Source: Burkholderiaceae bacterium (GTDB lineage: Bacteria > Pseudomonadota > Gammaproteobacteria > Burkholderiales > Burkholderiaceae). From it: DNA of 7,055 nucleotides. This document shows, one piece after another, positions 2 to 7,055 of the stretch. The stretch covers positions 1 to 7,055 of the forward strand of contig JAJPEN010000045.1 of the NCBI GenBank assembly GCA_021166835.1. Reading direction: 5' to 3'. Positions within the stretch are counted from its first letter, which is position 1. Every line of letters begins with the position of its first letter. The translations under genes and the position numbers were made by a program. The notes beneath the pieces are model-generated. The model saw only the letters and a list, made by a program, of their open reading frames with translations. It was not told where the DNA came from and did not search any database.

Positions 2-1630
2 ATCGAGCGCATCGAGACGACGGTCACGCGCTCGGAAGCCGAGGCGCTGCTGCTCGAGAACAACCTGATCAAGACGGCGGCGCCGCGCTACAACATCCTG
101 TTCCGCGACGACAAGTCGTATCCGTACCTGAAGATCACCGGGCACGAGTTCCCGCGCCTGGTCTACTACCGCGGCCCGATCGACCGGAGCAACCGGTATT
201 TCGGGCCGTTCCCGAACGCGAAGGCGGTGCGCGAGGCGATCCAGGTGCTGCAGAAGGTGTTCCGGCTGCGCACCTGCGAGGACAGCGTCTTCGCCAATCG
301 CACGCGGCCGTGCCTGCTGCACCAGATCGGGCGGTGCAGCGCGCCGTGCGTGGGGAAGATCGACCGCGAGGCCTACGCGCGCGACGTCGATGCAGCGGTT
401 CGTTTCCTGCAGGGCGAGCACGGCGCGGTGCTCGCCGAACTGGAGGAGCGCATGCGCGCGGAAGCCGCGGCGCTGCGCTTCGAGGCCGCCGCCGTGCTGC
501 GCGATCGGATGGCGGCATTGTCGAAGGTGCTCAGCCGCCAGTCGATGGAGACCGCGCTCGACGCCGACGCCGACATCGTCGCGGTGGCGATGCGCGGCGG
601 CCGCATCTGCGTGAACCTGGCGATGGTGCGCGGCGGGCGCCACCTCGGCGACAAGGCGATGTTCCCGGTGCATGCCGCGGAGGCGGGGGATGCGGAGTCG
701 GCGGCCGACGTGATCGAGGCCTTCGTCGCGCAGCACTACGACGGCATGCCGGTGCCGCCGGTGCTCGTGGTGGACGGCGTCGCGCCCGATCCGGCGCTAC
801 TCGAATGGCTGCAGCAGCAGGCCGGGCACGCGGTGCAGTGGATCCGCCAGCCGCAGGGCGTGCGCCGCGAATGGCTCGACCTCGCCCGGCAGAATGCCGA
901 AGTGTCGCTCGTGCGCGTGCTGTCGGAGGAGGGCTCGCAGCAGGCGCGCACGCGCTCGCTCGCGCAGCTGCTCGGCCTGGACGACAGCGACCTCGACGCG
1001 TTGCGCATCGAATGCTTCGACGTGAGCCACACGATGGGCGAGGCGACGCAGGCCTCCTGCGTCGTCTTCCAGCATCACGCGATGCAGCGCTCGCAATATC
1101 GGCGCTTCAACATCCGCGGCATCGAAGGCGGCGACGACTACGCCGCGATGCGACAGGTGCTCGAGCGCCGCTACGCGGAGGCGCCGCTGCCCGACCTGGT
1201 GCTGATCGACGGCGGCGCGGGCCAGGTCGAGGTGGCGCGTCAGGTGTTCGCCGACCTGGGGCTGGACATCTCGACGATCGTCGGCGTGGCCAAGGGCGAG
1301 GGGCGCAAGGTGGGACTCGAGACGCTGGTGTTCGCCGACGGGCGCGCGCCGATCGTGCCCGGCGCGCAATCGGCCGCGCTGATGCTGATCGCGCAGATCC
1401 GCGACGAGGCGCATCGCTTCGCGATCACCGGCATGCGCGCGCGGCGCGCGAAGGCGCGCAACAGCTCGCGGCTCGAGGAGATCGACGGCGTGGGGCCGCG
1501 GCGCCGGCAGCGGCTGCTCGCCCGTTTCGGGGGGCTGCGTGGCATCATGGCGGCGAGCGTCGACGACCTCGCCTCGGTGCAGGGCGTTTCGCGTACGCTC
1601 GCGGAGGAGATCTACCGCCGGCTGCACTAG
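2..1630 (+). CDS. uvrC: UvrABC excinuclease subunit C, 5'-truncated by the window
   Basis: UvrC makes both incisions around bulky DNA lesions after UvrB is loaded. The frame is open from base 2 and ends at TAG 1628-1630, giving 542 visible residues. The visible part starts inside the GIY-YIG nuclease domain: E19 (LLLEN) and N31 (RYNI) match its conserved Glu and Asn. A Cys cluster at residues 92, 104, 112 and 116 has the same spacing as E. coli C154/C166/C174/C178, so about 62 N-terminal residues lie outside the window. A UVR (UvrB-binding) motif follows at about 139-172. The RNase H-like endonuclease domain has D340 (CFDVSH), D403 (LIDGG) and H471 (DEAHRF). Tandem helix-hairpin-helix motifs lie at about 488-541 (IDGVGP, VQGVS). 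The gene is followed 56 nt later by pgsA, the classic pairing. Nothing suggests damage; the truncation is only the window edge. Confidence 0.97.
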
Positions 1631-1686: not shown

Positions 1687-2250
1687 ATGGTTCTGAATCT
1701 CCCGACGCTGCTTACCTGGACCCGCGTGCTGGCGATCCCGCTGCTGGTCGCCGTGTTCTATCTCCCGCTGAGCGTTCCTGCGCAGAACCTCGTCGCCACC
1801 GCGCTCTTCGTCGCCGCGGCGATCACCGACTGGCTCGACGGGTGGCTTGCGCGGCGCTGGGGCCAGACCTCCGCCTTCGGCGCCTTCCTCGATCCGGTCG
1901 CCGACAAGCTGATCGTCTGCGTTGCGCTGGTGATGCTGGTCTCGCTCGGCCGGGTCGACGCGATCGTCGCGGCGATCATCGTCGGGCGCGAGCTGACGAT
2001 CTCGGCGCTGCGCGAGTGGATGGCGCAGATCGGCGCGCGCACGAGCGTAGCCGTGCACTCGATCGGCAAGTTCAAGACGATCGCGCAACTGGTGGCGATC
2101 CCGCTGCTGCTGTACGACCGGCCGCTGTTCGCCGTGCTCGACACGCACCGCATCGGCACCTGGCTGATCTACGCGGCGGCGATCCTCACCGTCTGGTCGA
2201 TGACCTACTACCTGCGCCGCGCCTGGCCGTACCTGCGCGATTCGCGCTGA
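1687..2250 (+). CDS. pgsA: CDP-diacylglycerol--glycerol-3-phosphate 3-phosphatidyltransferase
   Basis: This inner-membrane enzyme transfers the phosphatidyl group of CDP-diacylglycerol to sn-glycerol-3-phosphate. It is the committed step to phosphatidylglycerol and cardiolipin. The 187-aa product is close to E. coli PgsA in length (182 aa). It carries the CDP-alcohol phosphotransferase signature D-x2-DG-x2-AR-x8-G-x3-D-x3-D at residues 48-73 (D48, D51, G52, A55, R56, G65, D69, D73). Several hydrophobic segments are visible, at about 5-27, 36-47, 75-100, 132-143 and 157-175. The ATG at 1687 was chosen because MVLNLPTLLT aligns with the E. coli start MQFNIPTLLT. It has no good ribosome binding site. 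An in-frame GTG at 1639, preceded by AGGGG, would add 16 residues with unusually tight spacing and is less likely. The 3' end overlaps the convergent cueR reading frame by 65 nt. Confidence 0.96.
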   Translation: MVLNLPTLLTWTRVLAIPLLVAVFYLPLSVPAQNLVATALFVAAAITDWLDGWLARRWGQTSAFGAFLDPVADKLIVCVALVMLVSLGRVDAIVAAIIVGRELTISALREWMAQIGARTSVAVHSIGKFKTIAQLVAIPLLLYDRPLFAVLDTHRIGTWLIYAAAILTVWSMTYYLRRAWPYLRDSR

Positions 2251-2692
2251 GGGAGGCATCCGGCTCGTCCGCTTCGCCGGCCCGCCGCCCGGACGAAAGA
2301 TCTTCGCCGCTGGCCAGCGAGTCGAGGATCGGGCATTCCGGCCGATCGTCGCCATGGCACGAGGCGGCCAGCTTCTGCAGCGTCGCCTTCATCTCGAGCA
2401 GTTCGCGCACCTTGCGCTCGAGCCGTTCGACCTGCTCGAGCGCGAGCGCCTTGACCTTCGCGCTCGGGCGGCTGCGGTCCTGCCACAGGCCGACCAGTTG
2501 CGCGATCTCGGCGATCGAGAAGCCCAGATCGCGGGCGCGCGCGATGAAGGCGAGCAGGTGCACGTCGTTGGCCGTGTACCGCCGGTAGCCGGCATCGCTG
2601 CGCGCGGCCGGCGGGATCAGGCCGAGCGATTCATAGTGACGAATCATCTTCGGCGAGACGCCGGAAGCGCGCGAGGCCTCTCCGATGTTCAT
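2186..2692 (-). CDS. cueR: CueR-type Cu(I)-responsive MerR-family regulator
   Basis: This is a MerR-family activator that binds the long-spacer promoter of copper efflux genes and untwists it when Cu(I), Ag(I) or Au(I) binds. Numbered from MNIGEAS, a winged helix covers about residues 1-70 (MIRHYE, GYRRYT). A dimerisation coiled coil follows at about 80-110. The metal loop has C112-x7-C120 (SCHGDDRPECP), and residue 77 is Ser. All three positions match E. coli CueR, and Ser77 is typical of monovalent-metal sensors. The protein has 168 aa versus 135 in E. coli; the extra tail of about 35 residues is Arg/Ala/Ser-rich and read antisense to pgsA. Start 2692 matches the family. An upstream ATG at 2716 forms an ATGA overlap with the copA stop and would add MTGLGTQP, so translation coupled to copA is plausible. 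Neither start has a clear ribosome binding site. It is the second gene of the copA operon. Confidence 0.93.
   Translation of the reverse strand: MNIGEASRASGVSPKMIRHYESLGLIPPAARSDAGYRRYTANDVHLLAFIARARDLGFSIAEIAQLVGLWQDRSRPSAKVKALALEQVERLERKVRELLEMKATLQKLAASCHGDDRPECPILDSLASGEDLSSGRRAGEADEPDASLSANRAGTARRGAGSRSSTRR
2265..2296. terminator. Possible hairpin between the convergent pgsA and cueR genes
   Basis: TCGTCCG (2265-2271) and CGGACGA (2290-2296) form a perfect 7-bp inverted repeat with an 18-nt GC-rich loop. It lies 14 nt after the pgsA stop and inside the C-terminal tail of cueR. No T-tract follows on either strand, so a terminator role for pgsA is only a guess from position. Confidence 0.3.
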
Positions 2693-2712
2693 CGGTTGCG
2701 TGCCCAGGCCGG

Positions 2713-5220
2713 TCATTCGGGTGCAGCCGTCGCGGGCAGCGGCGCCGCTGCTTTCGCGATGCCGTCCGGGCGGTTGCGGGACGATGCCGCGGCGCCGTTG
2801 CCGTCCGGCTGCCAGCGGCGAAGCAGCAAGGCATTGCTGACCACGCTCACGCTCGAGAAGGCCATCGCGGCCCCCGCGATGACCGGGTCGAGGTAGCCCA
2901 GCGCCGCCAGCGGCACGCCGACCGCGTTGTAGAAGAAGGCCCAGAAGAGGTTCTGCCGGATCTTCGCGTAGGTGCGGCGCGACACGTCGATCGCATCGGC
3001 GACGAGCCGAGGGTCGCCGCGCATCAGCGTGATGCCGGCCGCCTCCATCGCGACGTCGGTGCCGGTGGACATCGCGATGCCGACGCTCGCCGCCGCCAGC
3101 GCAGGCGCGTCGTTGATCCCGTCGCCCACCATCGCGACGACGGCGCCGCCGCGCGCCAGCTCGGCGACGATCGCGGCCTTCGTTTCGGGCAGGACCTCGG
3201 CACGAACTTCGTCGATGCCGAGTTGCGAGGCGACCGACTGCGCGCTTCCGCGGTTGTCGCCGGTGACGAGCACGGTGCGCACGCCGCGCGCGTGCAGCGA
3301 CGCGATCGCCTCGGCGGCTTCGGGCTTGACCTCGTCGCCGAAGGCGAGCAGGCCCAGCAGCTCGTGCGAGTCGCCGTTCTTCCGGGCGAGCCACGAAACG
3401 GTGCGGCCTTCGGACTGCAGCCGCGCGGCCTGCGCCGTCAGTTCGCCGGGCGAGACGCCCAGTTCCTCGAGCAGACGAGGGCTGCCCAGGTGCAGCGATT
3501 CGTCGTCGACGATGCCGTGGATCCCCCGTCCGGCCAGCGCGCGCACCTCGCGCGCCGGCGGAATCGGGAGCCCGCGCGCGCGTGCGGCTTCGAGCACCGC
3601 CTTCGCCAACGGATGTTCGCTGGCGCTCTGCAGCCCGGAGGCCAGGCGCAGCACTTCCTGCTCGCTGCTCGCGCCGACGGCGAGCACGGCCGCCAGCCGC
3701 GGTTGACCGATCGTCAGCGTGCCGGTCTTGTCGAAGGCGACGGTGGTGACCGAGTGCGCGCGCTCGAGCGCTTCGGCGTCCTTGATCAGGATGCCGTGGC
3801 GCGCGGCGACGCCGGTGCCGGCCATGATCGCCGTCGGCGTGGCGAGCCCGAGCGCGCAGGGGCAGGCGATGACGAGCACCGCAACCGCGTTCAGCAGCGC
3901 GCTTTCCCAGTCGCTGGTGGCGAGCCCCCATGCCGCGAGCGTGAGCAGCGCGATGCCCAGCACGACGGGCACGAACACCGCGCTCACGCGATCGACGAGT
4001 CGCTGGATCGGTGCCTTCGCCGCCTGCGCGCCCTCGACCATGCGGATGATCCGCGCCAGCATCGACTCGCTGCCGATAGCCAGCGTGCGCACCACAAGCA
4101 GTCCTTCGGCGTTGATCGATCCGCCGGTGACGCGATCGCCGATCGCCTTGGCCACCGGCAGGCTCTCGCCGGTGATCAGCGATTCGTCGGCATGGCTGCG
4201 TCCCTCGACGATTTCGCCGTCGACCGGGATCCGCTCGCCCGGACGGACGACGACGAAGTCGCCGACGCGCACCTTCGCCGCCGGCACTTCGGTCTCGACG
4301 CCTTCGCGGCGCACGCGCGCCGTCTGTGGCCGCAATGCCTTCAATGCGCGGATCGCGTCGGCGGTCTGGCGCTTGGCGCGCGCCTCGAGCCACTTGCCCA
4401 GCAGCACGAGCGTGATCACCGTGGCCGACGCTTCGAAGTACAGGTGCGGCATGCCGTGCCCGTGCGCGGCGAACATCAGGTACAGCGACAGCCCGTAGGC
4501 TGCCGAGGTGCCGAGCGCCACCAGCAGGTCCATGTTGCCGGTGCCCGCGCGCAGCGCCTTCCATCCGGCACGGTAGAAGCGCGCGCCCAGCCAGAACTGC
4601 ACGGGCGTCGCGAGCAGCAGTTGCGCCCACGCCGGCAACATCCAGTCGCGGCCGAAGGGCGCGCCGAGCATCGGAGCGACCAGCGGCAGCGTGAGCACGG
4701 CGGCGAGCGCGACGGGCCACCAGCCGGGCAGGCGGGGAGCGTTCGATGTCGCCGCAGCGTCGGATTCCGCCTCGGCGCTAGGGGCGACCTCGTAGCCGGC
4801 GCGCTCGATCGCTTCATGCAGCGCCTGCAGCGGCGTGGCGCCCAGCGTCTCGACGCGCGCGCGTTCGGTGGCCAGGTTGACCGAGACGCCGACGACGCCG
4901 GGTACCTTCGCCAGCGCCCGCTCGACGCGCCCGACGCAGGAAGCGCAGGTCATCCCAGCGACGGGGATGTCGAAGGTTTCGCGCGCGACTTCGTAGCCGG
5001 CCTTCTCGACGGCGTGCGCGAGTGCGGACGGCGCGACCGACGCGTCCGCGCTTACCGTGGCCGTCTCGGTGGCGAGGTTCACGTTCGCCTCGACGACGCC
5101 AGGCAACTTCTGCAATGCGCGCTCGACGCGTCCGACGCAGGAGGCGCAGGTCATCCCCCTGACTTGAAGCTGGACGGTGGACGCGGTCTGCGGGGACGAG
5201 GGAAGGGCCGAGGCGCTCAT
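2713..5220 (-). CDS. copA: Cu(I)-exporting P1B-1-type ATPase CopA
   Basis: This inner-membrane pump exports cytoplasmic Cu(I) (also Ag(I)) using ATP. The 835-aa product has two N-terminal heavy-metal-associated domains, with GMTCASC at residues 22-28 and 89-95. The actuator TGES is at 350-353, the transmembrane metal site CPC at 453-455, and the phosphorylation motif DKTGT at 497-501. The nucleotide domain has SEHP (534-537), TGDN (653-656) and GDGIND (699-704). YN in TM7 (764-765) and M786-x2-SS in TM8 complete the Cu(I) P1B-1 signature. Start 5220 was chosen because GGGAG lies 6 nt upstream and it falls downstream of the predicted CueR promoter. The frame remains open to an ATG at 5271, but that codon lies inside the operator dyad. 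An Ala/Pro-rich tail of about 30 residues follows TM8. cueR follows immediately in the same operon. All catalytic motifs are intact. Confidence 0.97.
4920..5157. repeat. Direct repeat encoding the two CopA metal-binding motifs
   Basis: A 37-nt segment at 4920-4956 recurs at 5121-5157 with two mismatches. The offset of 201 nt is exactly 67 codons. Both copies encode [13 protein letters not shown] on the minus strand. This is an in-frame domain duplication within copA and could support recombination between the two heavy-metal domains. Confidence 0.85.
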
Positions 5221-5251
5221 CGAGGACTCCCGGAACGATGCCATCGGGTGC

Positions 5252-5282
5252 ATCGTCCACCTTGACATCATGTCAAGGTCAA
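5252..5282 (-). promoter_or_regulatory. CueR-dependent copA promoter and operator
   Basis: On the minus strand the -35 element TTGACC lies at 5282-5277 and a candidate -10 GACGAT at 5257-5252, with a 19-bp spacer. That over-long spacer is the hallmark of MerR-family promoters. A dyad at 5259-5279 has two perfect 10-bp half-sites (ACCTTGACAT and ATGTCAAGGT) around one central base, centred at 5269 between -35 and -10. Transcription would start near 5246, about 26 nt before the copA ATG at 5220. The ACCTTG/CAAGGT outer halves resemble known CueR operators. The -10 is poor, as expected for a promoter that needs activator-driven distortion. Confidence 0.88.
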
Positions 5283-5303
5283 GTCCTCGATTTCAAGCTC
5301 GAC

Positions 5304-5377
5304 TGGAGGCGGAGGTCGGAATCGAACCGGCGTACACGGCTTTGCAGGCCGCTGCATGACCACTCTGCCACTCCGCC
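5304..5377 (-). tRNA. cysT: tRNA-Cys(GCA)
   Basis: This is a 74-nt cloverleaf with encoded CCA. Acceptor strands GGCGGAG and CTCCGCC pair, followed by discriminator U. The anticodon stem GCGGC/GCCGT (closing G-T) encloses the loop CTGCAAA, giving anticodon GCA at 5345-5343. The T arm is CCGG-TTCGATT-CCGA-like and the D arm carries GGTCATGC. It lies 58 nt downstream of tRNA-Gly on the same strand, as in the E. coli glyW-cysT-leuZ unit. Confidence 0.97.
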
Positions 5378-5389
5378 GGAAGAGCAGGT

Positions 5390-5413
5390 CGAACCGTGCG
5401 GAAAAGCGGTTCG
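5390..5413. repeat. Inverted repeat in the tRNA-Gly/tRNA-Cys spacer
   Basis: CGAACCG (5390-5396) and CGGTTCG (5407-5413) form a perfect 7-bp stem with a 10-nt loop in the 58-nt spacer between the two tRNAs. It may fold in the precursor transcript and help processing. No T-tract follows on the minus strand, so termination is not indicated. Confidence 0.5.
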
Positions 5414-5435
5414 TCGACGGTAGGAGGGAAGAAAC

Positions 5436-5511
5436 TGGAGCGGGAGACGAGTCTCGAACTCGCGACCTCAACCTTGGCAAGGTTGCGCTCTACCAACTGA
5501 GCTACTCCCGC
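5436..5511 (-). tRNA. glyW: tRNA-Gly(GCC)
   Basis: This is a 76-nt cloverleaf with encoded CCA. Acceptor strands GCGGGAG and CTCCCGC pair. The D arm is GCTCAGTTGGTAGAGC, the anticodon stem CAACC/GGTTG encloses loop TTGCCAA, and the anticodon is GCC. The T stem GCGAG/CTCGT encloses TTCGAGA. It is the first tRNA of a Gly-Cys unit driven by the strong promoter at 5524-5551. Confidence 0.97.
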
Positions 5512-5597: not shown

Positions 5598-6197
5598 TCA
5601 GGTCGCCATCGGCGTGACCTTCGCTCCTTCCAGCGCAACGCCCGCTGCCAGCCCGGCGTTGGTCAGCACGAAGGCGATCACCGGTTGCTGCGCGCTCGCC
5701 GTGTCGATGCGGCCGTTCGCACCCACCTTCGCGACCGCAACGGTCGCGTCGACGCCGGCGGTCCAGCCGTTGCTTTCGCGGAAGTGCTGCAACGCGTCGG
5801 GCGTCATGAACAGGTAGACGGCCGCCTGCGACTGCGCGCCCGCCTGCAGCCCGATCGACCCGGCGTTGACGGTGTAATAGCCCAGCGTGTGCCCGTTCCT
5901 GCCGAGCAGCGCGCCGTCGCCGTGCGCGCCGCCGATGCCGAAGCTGATGCGGATGATCGACGGGAAGACAAGCACGCCGCTCGCACGCTGCACGAGTTCG
6001 CGCGATCCCGGCGTCGTGTCGTACAGCTTCGTCAGTGTGGCGTCGACCGCGGCGTCGATCTCGTGGCGCTTCGCGCTGGCCGTGGCGCTGCCGGCGGGGC
6101 CGGTCGTCGTGCAGGCGGCCAGCCCGCCGGAGGCGAGCACGAGCAGCCCCAGTGCTACGCGGCGCCGAGCCGCGAATTCGGTCGGTTCACGGTGCAT
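5598..6197 (-). CDS. YSC84/SYLF-domain lipoprotein (BPSL1445-like)
   Basis: The product is a 199-aa exported lipoprotein. An Arg-containing n-region (about 1-13) and a hydrophobic core (14-27) end in the lipobox LAAC, with the lipidated cysteine at residue 29. Residues about 45-199 match the YSC84/SYLF (formerly DUF500) lipid-binding fold. Recognisable stretches are SGVLVFPSI, GYYTVNAGSIGLQAGAQSQA, GWTAGVDATVAV and the terminal GLAAGVALEGAKV. This arrangement closely resembles the Burkholderia BPSL1445 lipoprotein family, for which I know no defined biochemical role; phosphoinositide/lipid binding is known for eukaryotic SYLF proteins. Start 6197 has GGAG 6 nt upstream and gives a proper signal peptide. 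The longer open frame to 6479 runs into tRNA-Leu and its intron and is not coding. It is monocistronic, with a hairpin after its stop. Confidence 0.92.
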   Translation of the reverse strand: MHREPTEFAARRRVALGLLVLASGGLAACTTTGPAGSATASAKRHEIDAAVDATLTKLYDTTPGSRELVQRASGVLVFPSIIRISFGIGGAHGDGALLGRNGHTLGYYTVNAGSIGLQAGAQSQAAVYLFMTPDALQHFRESNGWTAGVDATVAVAKVGANGRIDTASAQQPVIAFVLTNAGLAAGVALEGAKVTPMAT

Positions 6198-6299: not shown

Positions 6300-6338
6300 C
6301 GGGCGCCGCTGCGCCGGTACACTGCGCAGCGGCGCCCG
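6300..6338. repeat. Perfect 15-bp inverted repeat across the tRNA-Leu 5' end
   Basis: CGGGCGCCGCTGCGC (6300-6314) and its exact complement (6324-6338) flank a 9-nt loop, CGGTACACT. The right arm covers the first five bases of tRNA-Leu (6334-6338), and the loop holds the best -10 candidate (TACACT). It may form a cruciform in DNA. If transcription starts upstream of it, it would form a hairpin sequestering the 5' acceptor strand. Confidence 0.8.
6318..6323 (+). promoter_or_regulatory. Candidate -10 element for tRNA-Leu
   Basis: TACACT matches TATAAT at 4 of 6 positions and lies 10 nt before the mature tRNA 5' end, so transcription would start only a few nt upstream of the tRNA. No convincing -35 is seen 16-18 bp upstream. 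This is the best candidate in the 136-nt gap between the divergent lipoprotein gene and tRNA-Leu. Confidence 0.35.
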
Positions 6339-6368
6339 GGTGGTGAAATCGGTAGACACAAGGGACTT

Positions 6369-6601
6369 GAACAATTTGAGCCTTCGGGTGGAAACGTCCG
6401 AAGTGAAGCCCGTCAAAGTCGGCGAAAGCCCTGGATGCTCCGGTGTCCGAGCCAACGCCGAGCCAAGCCCAAGCTGCACGCTTGGGAAGGTGTAGAGAGC
6501 AGACGGCGGGCACCTACGGTCGCAAGACTATGGTGAAGGCGTGCTCCAGACCACGAACGCCCTGCGACGTGCAGGACGGCGGCGAAAGCCGAAGTGGGAA
6601 G
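6369..6601 (+). ncRNA. Group I self-splicing intron (IC3-like) in tRNA-Leu(UAA)
   Basis: The 233-nt ribozyme follows U6368 and ends in omega-G at 6601. P1: the exon end CTT pairs with GAG at 6378-6380, with a U-G wobble at the splice site. P10: AAA of the 3' exon pairs with TTT 6375-6377. P2: CTTCGG/CCGAAG (6382-6387/6398-6403), capped by a GAAA loop. P3: GCCCGTC/GGCGGGC (6408-6414/6505-6511). P4: TCGGCG/CGCCGA (6419-6424/6456-6461). P6: CCCAAGC/GCTTGGG (6468-6474/6480-6486). P7: GAGCA/TGCTC (6497-6501/6542-6546). P8 is closed by ACC/GGT with a GCAA loop (6522-6525). The P9 region has CCTGC/GCAGG, CGGC-GAAA-GCCG and CCAC/GTGG. Core strings such as ACGCCGAGCCAAG, AAGGTGTAGAGA and TATGGTGAAGGC match the Azoarcus tRNA-Ile intron as I recall it. 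TTTGAGCCTT...GGAAAC...AAGTG matches the plastid/cyanobacterial tRNA-Leu intron start. It is too short to encode a homing endonuclease. Confidence 0.94.
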
Positions 6602-6653
6602 AAAATCCCTCGGCGGCGACGCCATGCGGGTTCGAGCCCCGCCTCGGGCACCA
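6602..6653 (+). other. Putative attachment site (attL) in the tRNA-Leu 3' exon
   Basis: An integrase gene lies directly downstream of and co-directional with this tRNA 3' end, the usual layout for islands that recombine into the 3' part of a tRNA gene. The exact core cannot be defined because the matching repeat (attR) would be outside the window. Confidence 0.45.
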
Positions 6654-7055
6654 CGCGGAACAGGCTGAAACCCGCACCAGCGCTTGCTCTCCAGCCGATT
6701 TTCCCCGCCCACCGTGATCCAACAATTTCCGGCACGCTCCCTCTGAAAACCGCTGCACCTGTGGTAGTCTGCCCACCATTCCGCACACCTCAGGCATTCG
6801 AACAAGATGGGCCACGTGAAGCAGCGGGGCGACGGCTGGCGGGCCTTCGTGCAGCGAGGGAAGTACCGGCCGACGAAGACGTTCTCGACGAAGCGCGAGG
6901 CGCTCGACTGGATCATCGCAGAAGAGGCCGCGTGCCTGGCCGGTGAGCGTGGCGCCGGCACTGGCGCGCAGACGGTGGCCGACGCGATCGACCGCTACCT
7001 CGCGAGCGCCGATCTCGGCCGCTCCGAGCGCACGCGGCTCGCGGTGTTCCGCCGC
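6654..7055 (+). mobile_element. Left end of a tRNA-Leu-integrated island or prophage
   Basis: This stretch runs from the tRNA CCA to the window end: a 153-nt non-coding leader that looks less GC-rich than its neighbours, then an integrase gene. I see no clear promoter or terminator in the leader. TAGTCT at 6765-6770 is a weak -10 candidate without a good -35. The type of element (prophage, ICE or other island) cannot be told from here. Confidence 0.6.
6807..7055 (+). CDS. Tyrosine-recombinase-type integrase, N-terminal part (cut by window end)
   Basis: Eighty-three codons are visible and the frame is open at the window end. Residues 1-45 (MGHVKQRGDGWRAFVQRGKYRPTKTF..., then STKREALDWI) match the N-terminal arm-DNA-binding region of phage and island integrases. 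There the protein typically reads W-x-A-x-V-x-R-x-G-x4-K-T-F, then S/T-K-x-E-A-x-x-W. From about residue 55 (QTVADAIDRYLAS) the core-binding SAM-like domain begins. The catalytic R-H-R-Y residues lie beyond the window, so activity cannot be judged. The ATG at 6807 is the first plausible start; the upstream sequence has only a weak AGG. The position just after tRNA-Leu suggests that it integrates its element into this gene. Confidence 0.85.
   Translation, partial: MGHVKQRGDGWRAFVQRGKYRPTKTFSTKREALDWIIAEEAACLAGERGAGTGAQTVADAIDRYLASADLGRSERTRLAVFRR

Follow-up and report, generated by a model that had tools for sequence, protein, structure and literature searches.

Group IC3 introns in tRNA-Leu(UAA) genes are known from cyanobacteria and plastids, and Vepritskiy et al. 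reportedly described, in 2002, one gammaproteobacterial example, with an abstract said to give the P8 motif CCUACG...UAUGG. As described, these introns resemble the one presented here in host tRNA, U34/A35 site, size and core helices, and the gammaproteobacterial one reportedly also in its P8 motif; unlike them, ours has a betaproteobacterial host and belongs to a lineage linked to integrative conjugative elements (ICEs). The group I intron of the Azoarcus tRNA-Ile(CAU) gene, with its IC3 core and GAAA loops, is probably similar in these two features, but differs in tRNA and site. On the side of the elements, the Tn4371/ICE-KKS102 family of ICEs has trb-type transfer genes.

In tRNA-dependent lysogeny, according to Guerrero-Bustamante and Hatfull 2024 (PMC10865867), a tyrosine integrase acts at a host tRNA gene that is not rebuilt and the phage brings the same isotype; the positive rows of Table 2 have cores of 8–17 bp, except for Omega with 44. 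The related ICEs described below are alike in tyrosine integrase, short core, unrebuilt host tRNA and supplied isotype, and differ in being ICEs rather than phages and in the intron of their replacement gene—"intron" occurs in PMC10865867 once, in a reference title. Sinorhizobium meliloti prophages with a substituted tRNA gene (PMC11476347) similarly replace a host tRNA by their own, but are not ICEs, and that paper lacks the word "intron". For the Tn4371/ICE-KKS102-4677 family, a review (PMC9960961) names tRNA-Leu as integration target, as here, but with the site at its 3' end instead of the anticodon loop, and is likewise free of the word "intron". Among the papers listed in searches of the open-licence literature, none was seen to link ICEs with intron-bearing replacement tRNAs, nor did we find there a substitute tRNA whose core is interrupted by a group I intron.

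The stretch of DNA analysed here (the window) comprises 7,055 nucleotides of a Burkholderiaceae contig (JAJPEN010000045.1), with the following gene features:

2–1630, forward strand: uvrC (named by eye), lacking its 5' end; synteny anchor
1687–2250, forward strand: pgsA (named by eye); synteny anchor
6334–6368, forward strand: tRNA-Leu(UAA) 5' exon, last base U34 (ARAGORN with introns; alignment with relatives)
6369–6601, forward strand: group I (IC3-like) intron, 233 nt, final base G (RF00028, 34.4 bits; covariation)
6602–6653, forward strand: tRNA-Leu(UAA) 3' exon including CCA (ARAGORN with introns)
6807–7055, forward strand: first part of an integrase-like gene that runs past the window end (PHROG phrog_1 integrase, E 2.5e-5)

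With introns allowed, ARAGORN reports tRNA-Leu(taa) at 6334–6653 with a 233-nt intron; joining 6368 to 6602 yields an 87-nt tRNA with CCA, and the insertion point falls between U34 and A35, the site of the tRNA-Leu(UAA) intron family and of the parsed relatives. The group I model RF00028 matches 6359–6549 with 34.4 bits (E 3.5e-7 in 471 bases), a score below the gathering score of 50 bits, and is unlisted in the default Rfam scan of the whole window; we read the low score as a limit of the model. The gene was missed both by ARAGORN without the intron option and at the Rfam cut-off, an annotation blind spot. These results confirm in the window a tRNA-Leu(UAA) gene interrupted by a group I (IC3-like) intron of 233 nt, much as a preliminary description of this DNA had proposed from its letters: the 87-nt tRNA, the U34/A35 site and the intron itself all stood, as did the betaproteobacterial context (the best match of the window's UvrC is 72% identical and lies within Burkholderiales), and the Rfam check that it had put forward gave a group I match, at a score under the gathering cut-off. 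A GC-rich 14-bp inverted repeat (6301–6337), which surfaced as a chance Rfam match, overlaps the 5' end of the tRNA. We also considered G6.U67 as proof of a hybrid tRNA gene and dropped the idea once native exons had been read.

The intron's structure was written by hand from P1 to P9b (70 pairs), with the elements listed here:

6366–6380, forward strand: P1, exon CUU and intron GAA paired with UUUGAG, with U.G at the 5' splice site
6382–6403, forward strand: P2 with a GAAA loop (designed structure, covariation)
6408–6511, forward strand: P3, strands 6408–6414 and 6505–6511 (changes on both sides in 5/7 pairs)
6419–6461, forward strand: P4 (6419–6424 and 6456–6461) around P5 (designed structure, covariation)
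6462–6491, forward strand: P6 and P6a (designed structure, covariation)
6497–6546, forward strand: P7, strands 6497–6501 and 6542–6546, the guanosine site helix (185/185 cells paired)
6512–6534, forward strand: P8 with the receptor-like CCUACG...UAUGG motif (designed structure)
6551–6597, forward strand: P9 with P9a and P9b, the latter with a GAAA loop (designed structure, covariation)

Pairing was counted on 37 sequences including the window, drawn from 66 representatives; the alignment excludes the rows from Bacteroidales, Alphaproteobacteria and viruses. In this alignment, 92.3% of 2410 cells are paired, versus 78.4% in shuffles, 43 pairs show changes on both sides, and none of 500 shuffles was equally high on any of five measures; sliding the partners by 1–3 columns lowers pairing to 30–46%. 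Three of the five P7 pairs covary, and P9a is found in few relatives. The core helices P3–P8, P7 included, are present with covariation, as in group I (IC3-like) introns. Since the search pattern and parser imposed the P1 letters (exon CUU, intron GAG) and the final G on the relatives, their invariance there is no independent evidence, and plain minimum-free-energy folding, a method blind to the P3/P7 pseudoknot, adds weak evidence (z -2.0).

The intactness of the gene also bears on whether it might be a dead or unspliced copy. G6.U67 in the acceptor stem (noted by eye) would fit such a reading, a second UAA gene may exist elsewhere in the window's source genome, and one relative does possess an intact intronless gene (G066). 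Against this, all 70 designed pairs are standard in the window, and its terminal G and splice-site U.G are intact; furthermore, when intronless genes were sought in 28 of the 32 genomes that contain the intron or match its pattern, the nine matches comprised eight truncated 5' halves and that one intact gene, and the other 19 genomes gave none. The intronless copy elsewhere that the preliminary description had named as grounds for doubt is mostly missing in relatives (27/28 genomes searched without an intact match), and we regard a dead copy as quite improbable.

To gauge frequency, we used a pattern over exon and P1 on one genome per species, which matched at least 120 stretches. Among the matches listed (120 loci), 102 carry the intron, 13 are intronless and 5 could not be parsed. 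The introns parsed among the matches listed (n = 103) measure 203–739 nt (median 226) and come from Betaproteobacteria (35), Gammaproteobacteria (29), Bacteroidia (21), Alphaproteobacteria (6) and other or unclassified hosts (12), the host labels of introns in metagenome-assembled genomes being taken as given. Within Burkholderiales, 25 of 399 genomes (one per species) match a wide intron pattern, against one match of the reversed control, and we take these as pattern-level matches; an intronless-type pattern is matched in 100/120, a set that includes at least one split half. With 102 of the 120 listed loci bearing an intron, and given the Burkholderiales matches, the earlier suggestion that such introns are rare in proteobacteria is not borne out. 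Their apparent rarity may reflect low recovery by Rfam together with the design of tRNAscan-SE: RF00028 recovers the intron at E <= 0.01 in one of six intron-bearing genomes, and of five relatives scanned three score 34.5–45 and two (L005, L006) have no match at E <= 0.001, while tRNAscan-SE, according to PMC8450103, is not designed for detecting self-splicing introns. Viral contigs contribute at least 29 loci parsed with an intron (29/120 among the matches listed, wider pattern); phage group I introns observed by 2014 were all in protein genes, as a review from that year puts it (PMC3984707). The relatives found occupy the same tRNA site, the only one at which the pattern looked, and the site switching within IC3 that had been entertained is unneeded.

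A further possibility raised in the preliminary description, horizontal transfer, was borne out by a comparison of intron and host relationships. Among the matches listed, the introns closest to the window's are those of L082 (95.3%) and L071, a Frateuria (94.4%), followed by L086 (Eoetvoesiella, 92.3%), L028 (Lysobacter, 91.0%) and L052 (Ottowia, 91.0%); the window's UvrC is, in the same order, 54, 51, 66, 51 and 65% identical to theirs (for L052, in two pieces). The intron tree mixes beta- and gammaproteobacterial hosts, with 12 label changes on 59 rows (11–13 in bootstraps), where one change would mean a single group for each class; four of the changes are forced by well supported branches, the branch supports being rough for a marker of about 220 columns whose bootstrap had not settled. 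Because intron and host relationships disagree, transfer is supported, and the intron very probably did not descend by vertical inheritance alone. The labels are also clustered (12 changes versus a shuffled mean of 18.6, with 1/500 shuffles as low), so that some descent within the beta and gamma groups remains. This partial clustering, and an insertion site and P1 like those of the cyanobacterial tRNA-Leu intron, are what one would expect under ancient vertical inheritance of a cyanobacterial-type intron; the mismatch of intron and UvrC identities, the mixing of hosts on the tree and the patchy presence of intron and intronless patterns in the Burkholderiales count against it, and we rejected vertical ancestry alone as very improbable. 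An approximate cyanobacterial intron query had no match in plasmids.

A vehicle for transfer is suggested by the flanks of the relatives. In 18 of 104 rows (the intron-bearing loci among the matches listed, window included), a truncated tRNA-Leu 5' half precedes the intron-bearing gene, and 15 of these 18 also have DUF2274/TrbI matches in the flank; no half was recognised in the other 86, some of which have a short upstream flank. The halves end at CTTAAAATC, except for one (L046) that reads CTTAAAACC; they mostly carry host-specific letters, and the left ends beyond the core are similar. In eight genomes the intron-bearing gene follows about 160–195 bp after the half; no intact intronless UAA gene was found by pattern in these eight, and in six of them a detached 3' half was recovered, lying 41–52 kb away in the five with both ends on one contig. 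The cores of Lysobacter concretionis, for example, are 41,029 bp apart and enclose TrbE, TrbB, TraG, a relaxase-like and a ParA-like protein, with the native 3' half beyond the right core; in the one element scanned, TrbE, TrbB and TraG score above cut-offs, and RlxS reaches 662.7 of 850 bits. Of five right ends, four (one of them scanned with Pfam) have a tyrosine integrase that begins 176 bp inward from the right core, and the filter used found none at the right end of G006. Patterns built on the left end and finishing ahead of the intron gene matched 4/399 Burkholderiales and 3/309 Lysobacter-order genomes, with the intron gene next in 7/7; these patterns derive from intron-bearing elements, three of the seven matches (G004, G005, G007) were known beforehand, and an intronless element variant with a different left end would escape them. 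L071 has a damaged half and left end and has kept the intron gene; ICE genes were not found downstream of it, and the locus looks like a fossil ICE insertion. Read from sequence, related ICEs break the native tRNA-Leu(UAA) at a short core without rebuilding it, and carry an intron-bearing replacement of the same isotype.

Since the codon UUA is read only by tRNA-Leu(UAA), a working substitute is very probable, and hence one predicted to be spliced. We favour, with a probability of roughly 0.7, a reading in which the window holds a predicted self-splicing tRNA-Leu whose intron clade spread in trb-type ICEs, the window's copy being a domesticated descendant. Elements probably of the Tn4371/ICE-KKS102 kind would recombine at the 9-bp core in the anticodon loop of the host tRNA-Leu(UAA), leaving that gene in two unrestored parts and placing their own complete, intron-bearing gene close to the left junction, an arrangement seen in sequence; guanosine-initiated self-splicing would remove the group IC3 intron from its transcript and keep UUA decoding alive, and decay of the element would leave the intron-bearing gene as the only copy. 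If so, conjugative elements that destroy a likely essential tRNA gene and bring a split substitute would be a concrete vehicle bearing on an old question, namely why bacterial tRNA anticodon loops hold group I introns and how such introns spread.

For the window itself, we found no split tRNA half and no ICE left end beside the intron gene, and no trb gene among its ORFs. Its intron nevertheless falls within the ICE-linked clade, sharing 95% identity with one ICE copy, and from this combination the gene is probably a domesticated descendant of an ICE-borne copy; solitary intron genes such as those in Achromobacter, Cupriavidus and Bordetella may be later stages of decay. In the reverse scenario, homing or reverse splicing brought the intron alone into a native tRNA-Leu, and ICEs picked up the already split gene. 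This would accommodate the window's exons, which, like its flanks and the 3' exon in particular, are unlike the ICE type and differ from the exons of the nearest ICE copies, as well as the antisense HNH-like open frames of 155–200 aa in some longer relatives from gammaproteobacterial and viral contigs, one of which, when scanned, gave HNH_3 at E 7.8e-4, below cut-off. The window's intron is, on the other hand, too short for such a frame, and the two introns closest to it are one carried by an ICE and one from a fossil ICE; we consider entry of the intron alone rather unlikely.

The window gene is probably at the native tRNA-Leu(UAA) locus, in a rearranged neighbourhood, because pgsA lies on the same strand less than 1 kb upstream of the intron-bearing tRNA-Leu in five of nine loci with pgsA, several loci have tRNA-Gly and tRNA-Cys ahead of it, and the E. 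coli gene order is uvrC-pgsA-glyW-cysT-leuZ. The Gly, Cys and Leu tRNAs are on one strand in several relatives. Between pgsA and tRNA-Leu, the window has on the reverse strand (2186–5511) a copper-type ATPase gene, a MerR-like gene (by eye), tRNA-Cys and tRNA-Gly, and, between tRNA-Gly and tRNA-Leu (5598–6197, reverse strand), a gene for a Ysc84-domain protein (PF04366, E 8.6e-14). The integrase-like gene at 6807 begins 153 bp past tRNA-Leu, has no Pfam or NCBIfam match in its 6807–7055 portion and no relatives in viral contigs or plasmids, and is perhaps unrelated to the intron.

We also considered why the intron sits inside the core. A replacement tRNA without an intron would be a perfect attB for the element's own integrase; an intron would split the core in DNA, with RNA splicing restoring the tRNA, and as a hypothesis the intron in the replacement gene may hide the core from that integrase. 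The general form of this idea, that a group I intron placed in the anticodon loop of a tRNA gene shields the DNA against an element's own integrase, is tentative and in our judgement somewhat doubtful; if true, selection for shielding would spread tRNA introns on integrative elements. The match of intron site and att core may be a coincidence, since anticodon loops are the general site of group I introns in tRNAs (PMC4033280).

Gordonia phage Daredevil is a possible independent case of a shielding intron. Beside its integrase lies an unannotated tRNA-Lys(UUU) gene (NC_048021, about 41820–42131; 871–1182 of L005) with a 238-nt intron at 34/35. Between the two, 169 bp from the tRNA-Lys gene, 16 bp equal to the anticodon arm of the spliced tRNA-Lys stand uninterrupted, a likely attP judging by their letters; in the tRNA-Lys gene the same 16-bp stretch is interrupted by the intron. 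The intron has no Rfam match at E <= 0.001, and its kinship by blastn amounts to 73.7% identity over 38% of the query. According to PMC10865867, Daredevil integrates at a tRNA-Lys-TTT gene that is not rebuilt and forms clear plaques, a figure legend gives tRNA-Ile2-CAT as missing for it, and its relative Mollymur alone is said to encode its own tRNA. That a phage described without its own tRNA holds a split one points to the annotation blind spot again; given the clear plaques, the split tRNA-Lys may not function. Mollymur's intronless replacement tRNA keeps a 9-bp core intact, and therefore a shield is not always needed.

Thirteen sister integrases, 60–69% identical, have different sites: ten at a terminator-like end, two at a tRNA 3' half like tRNA-Leu(CAA), and one unreadable. 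For the two tRNA-Leu(CAA)-like cases, left ends were not found; the search gave only intact tRNA-Leu(CAA) genes, in two of three genomes. The ten (L309–L314, L316–L318 and L321), about 67–69% identical, share an end resembling TGAAAT plus a run of A, at sites away from tRNA genes.

Several observations concern the wider distribution of the intron. Matches to the window's intron region were obtained in 1277 plasmid records, 1274 of them at 60–80% identity. Two records of enterobacterial resistance plasmids (L003 and L004, about 2990–3370) have an intron-bearing tRNA-Leu(UAA) adjoining tmrB and aac(3)-IId, and in L003 a core look-alike, noted by eye, lies upstream of that gene. A 595-kb phage record (LR756511; L006, about 800–1150) has a tRNA-Leu-like 3' exon behind a core that resembles group I; an HNH-like stretch lies upstream (by eye). 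Finally, seven loci (L013, L018, L064, L066, L107, L153 and L223) have tRNA-Leu(UAA) introns of about 680–740 nt whose opposite strand holds an open frame of HNH-like type, again as judged by eye.
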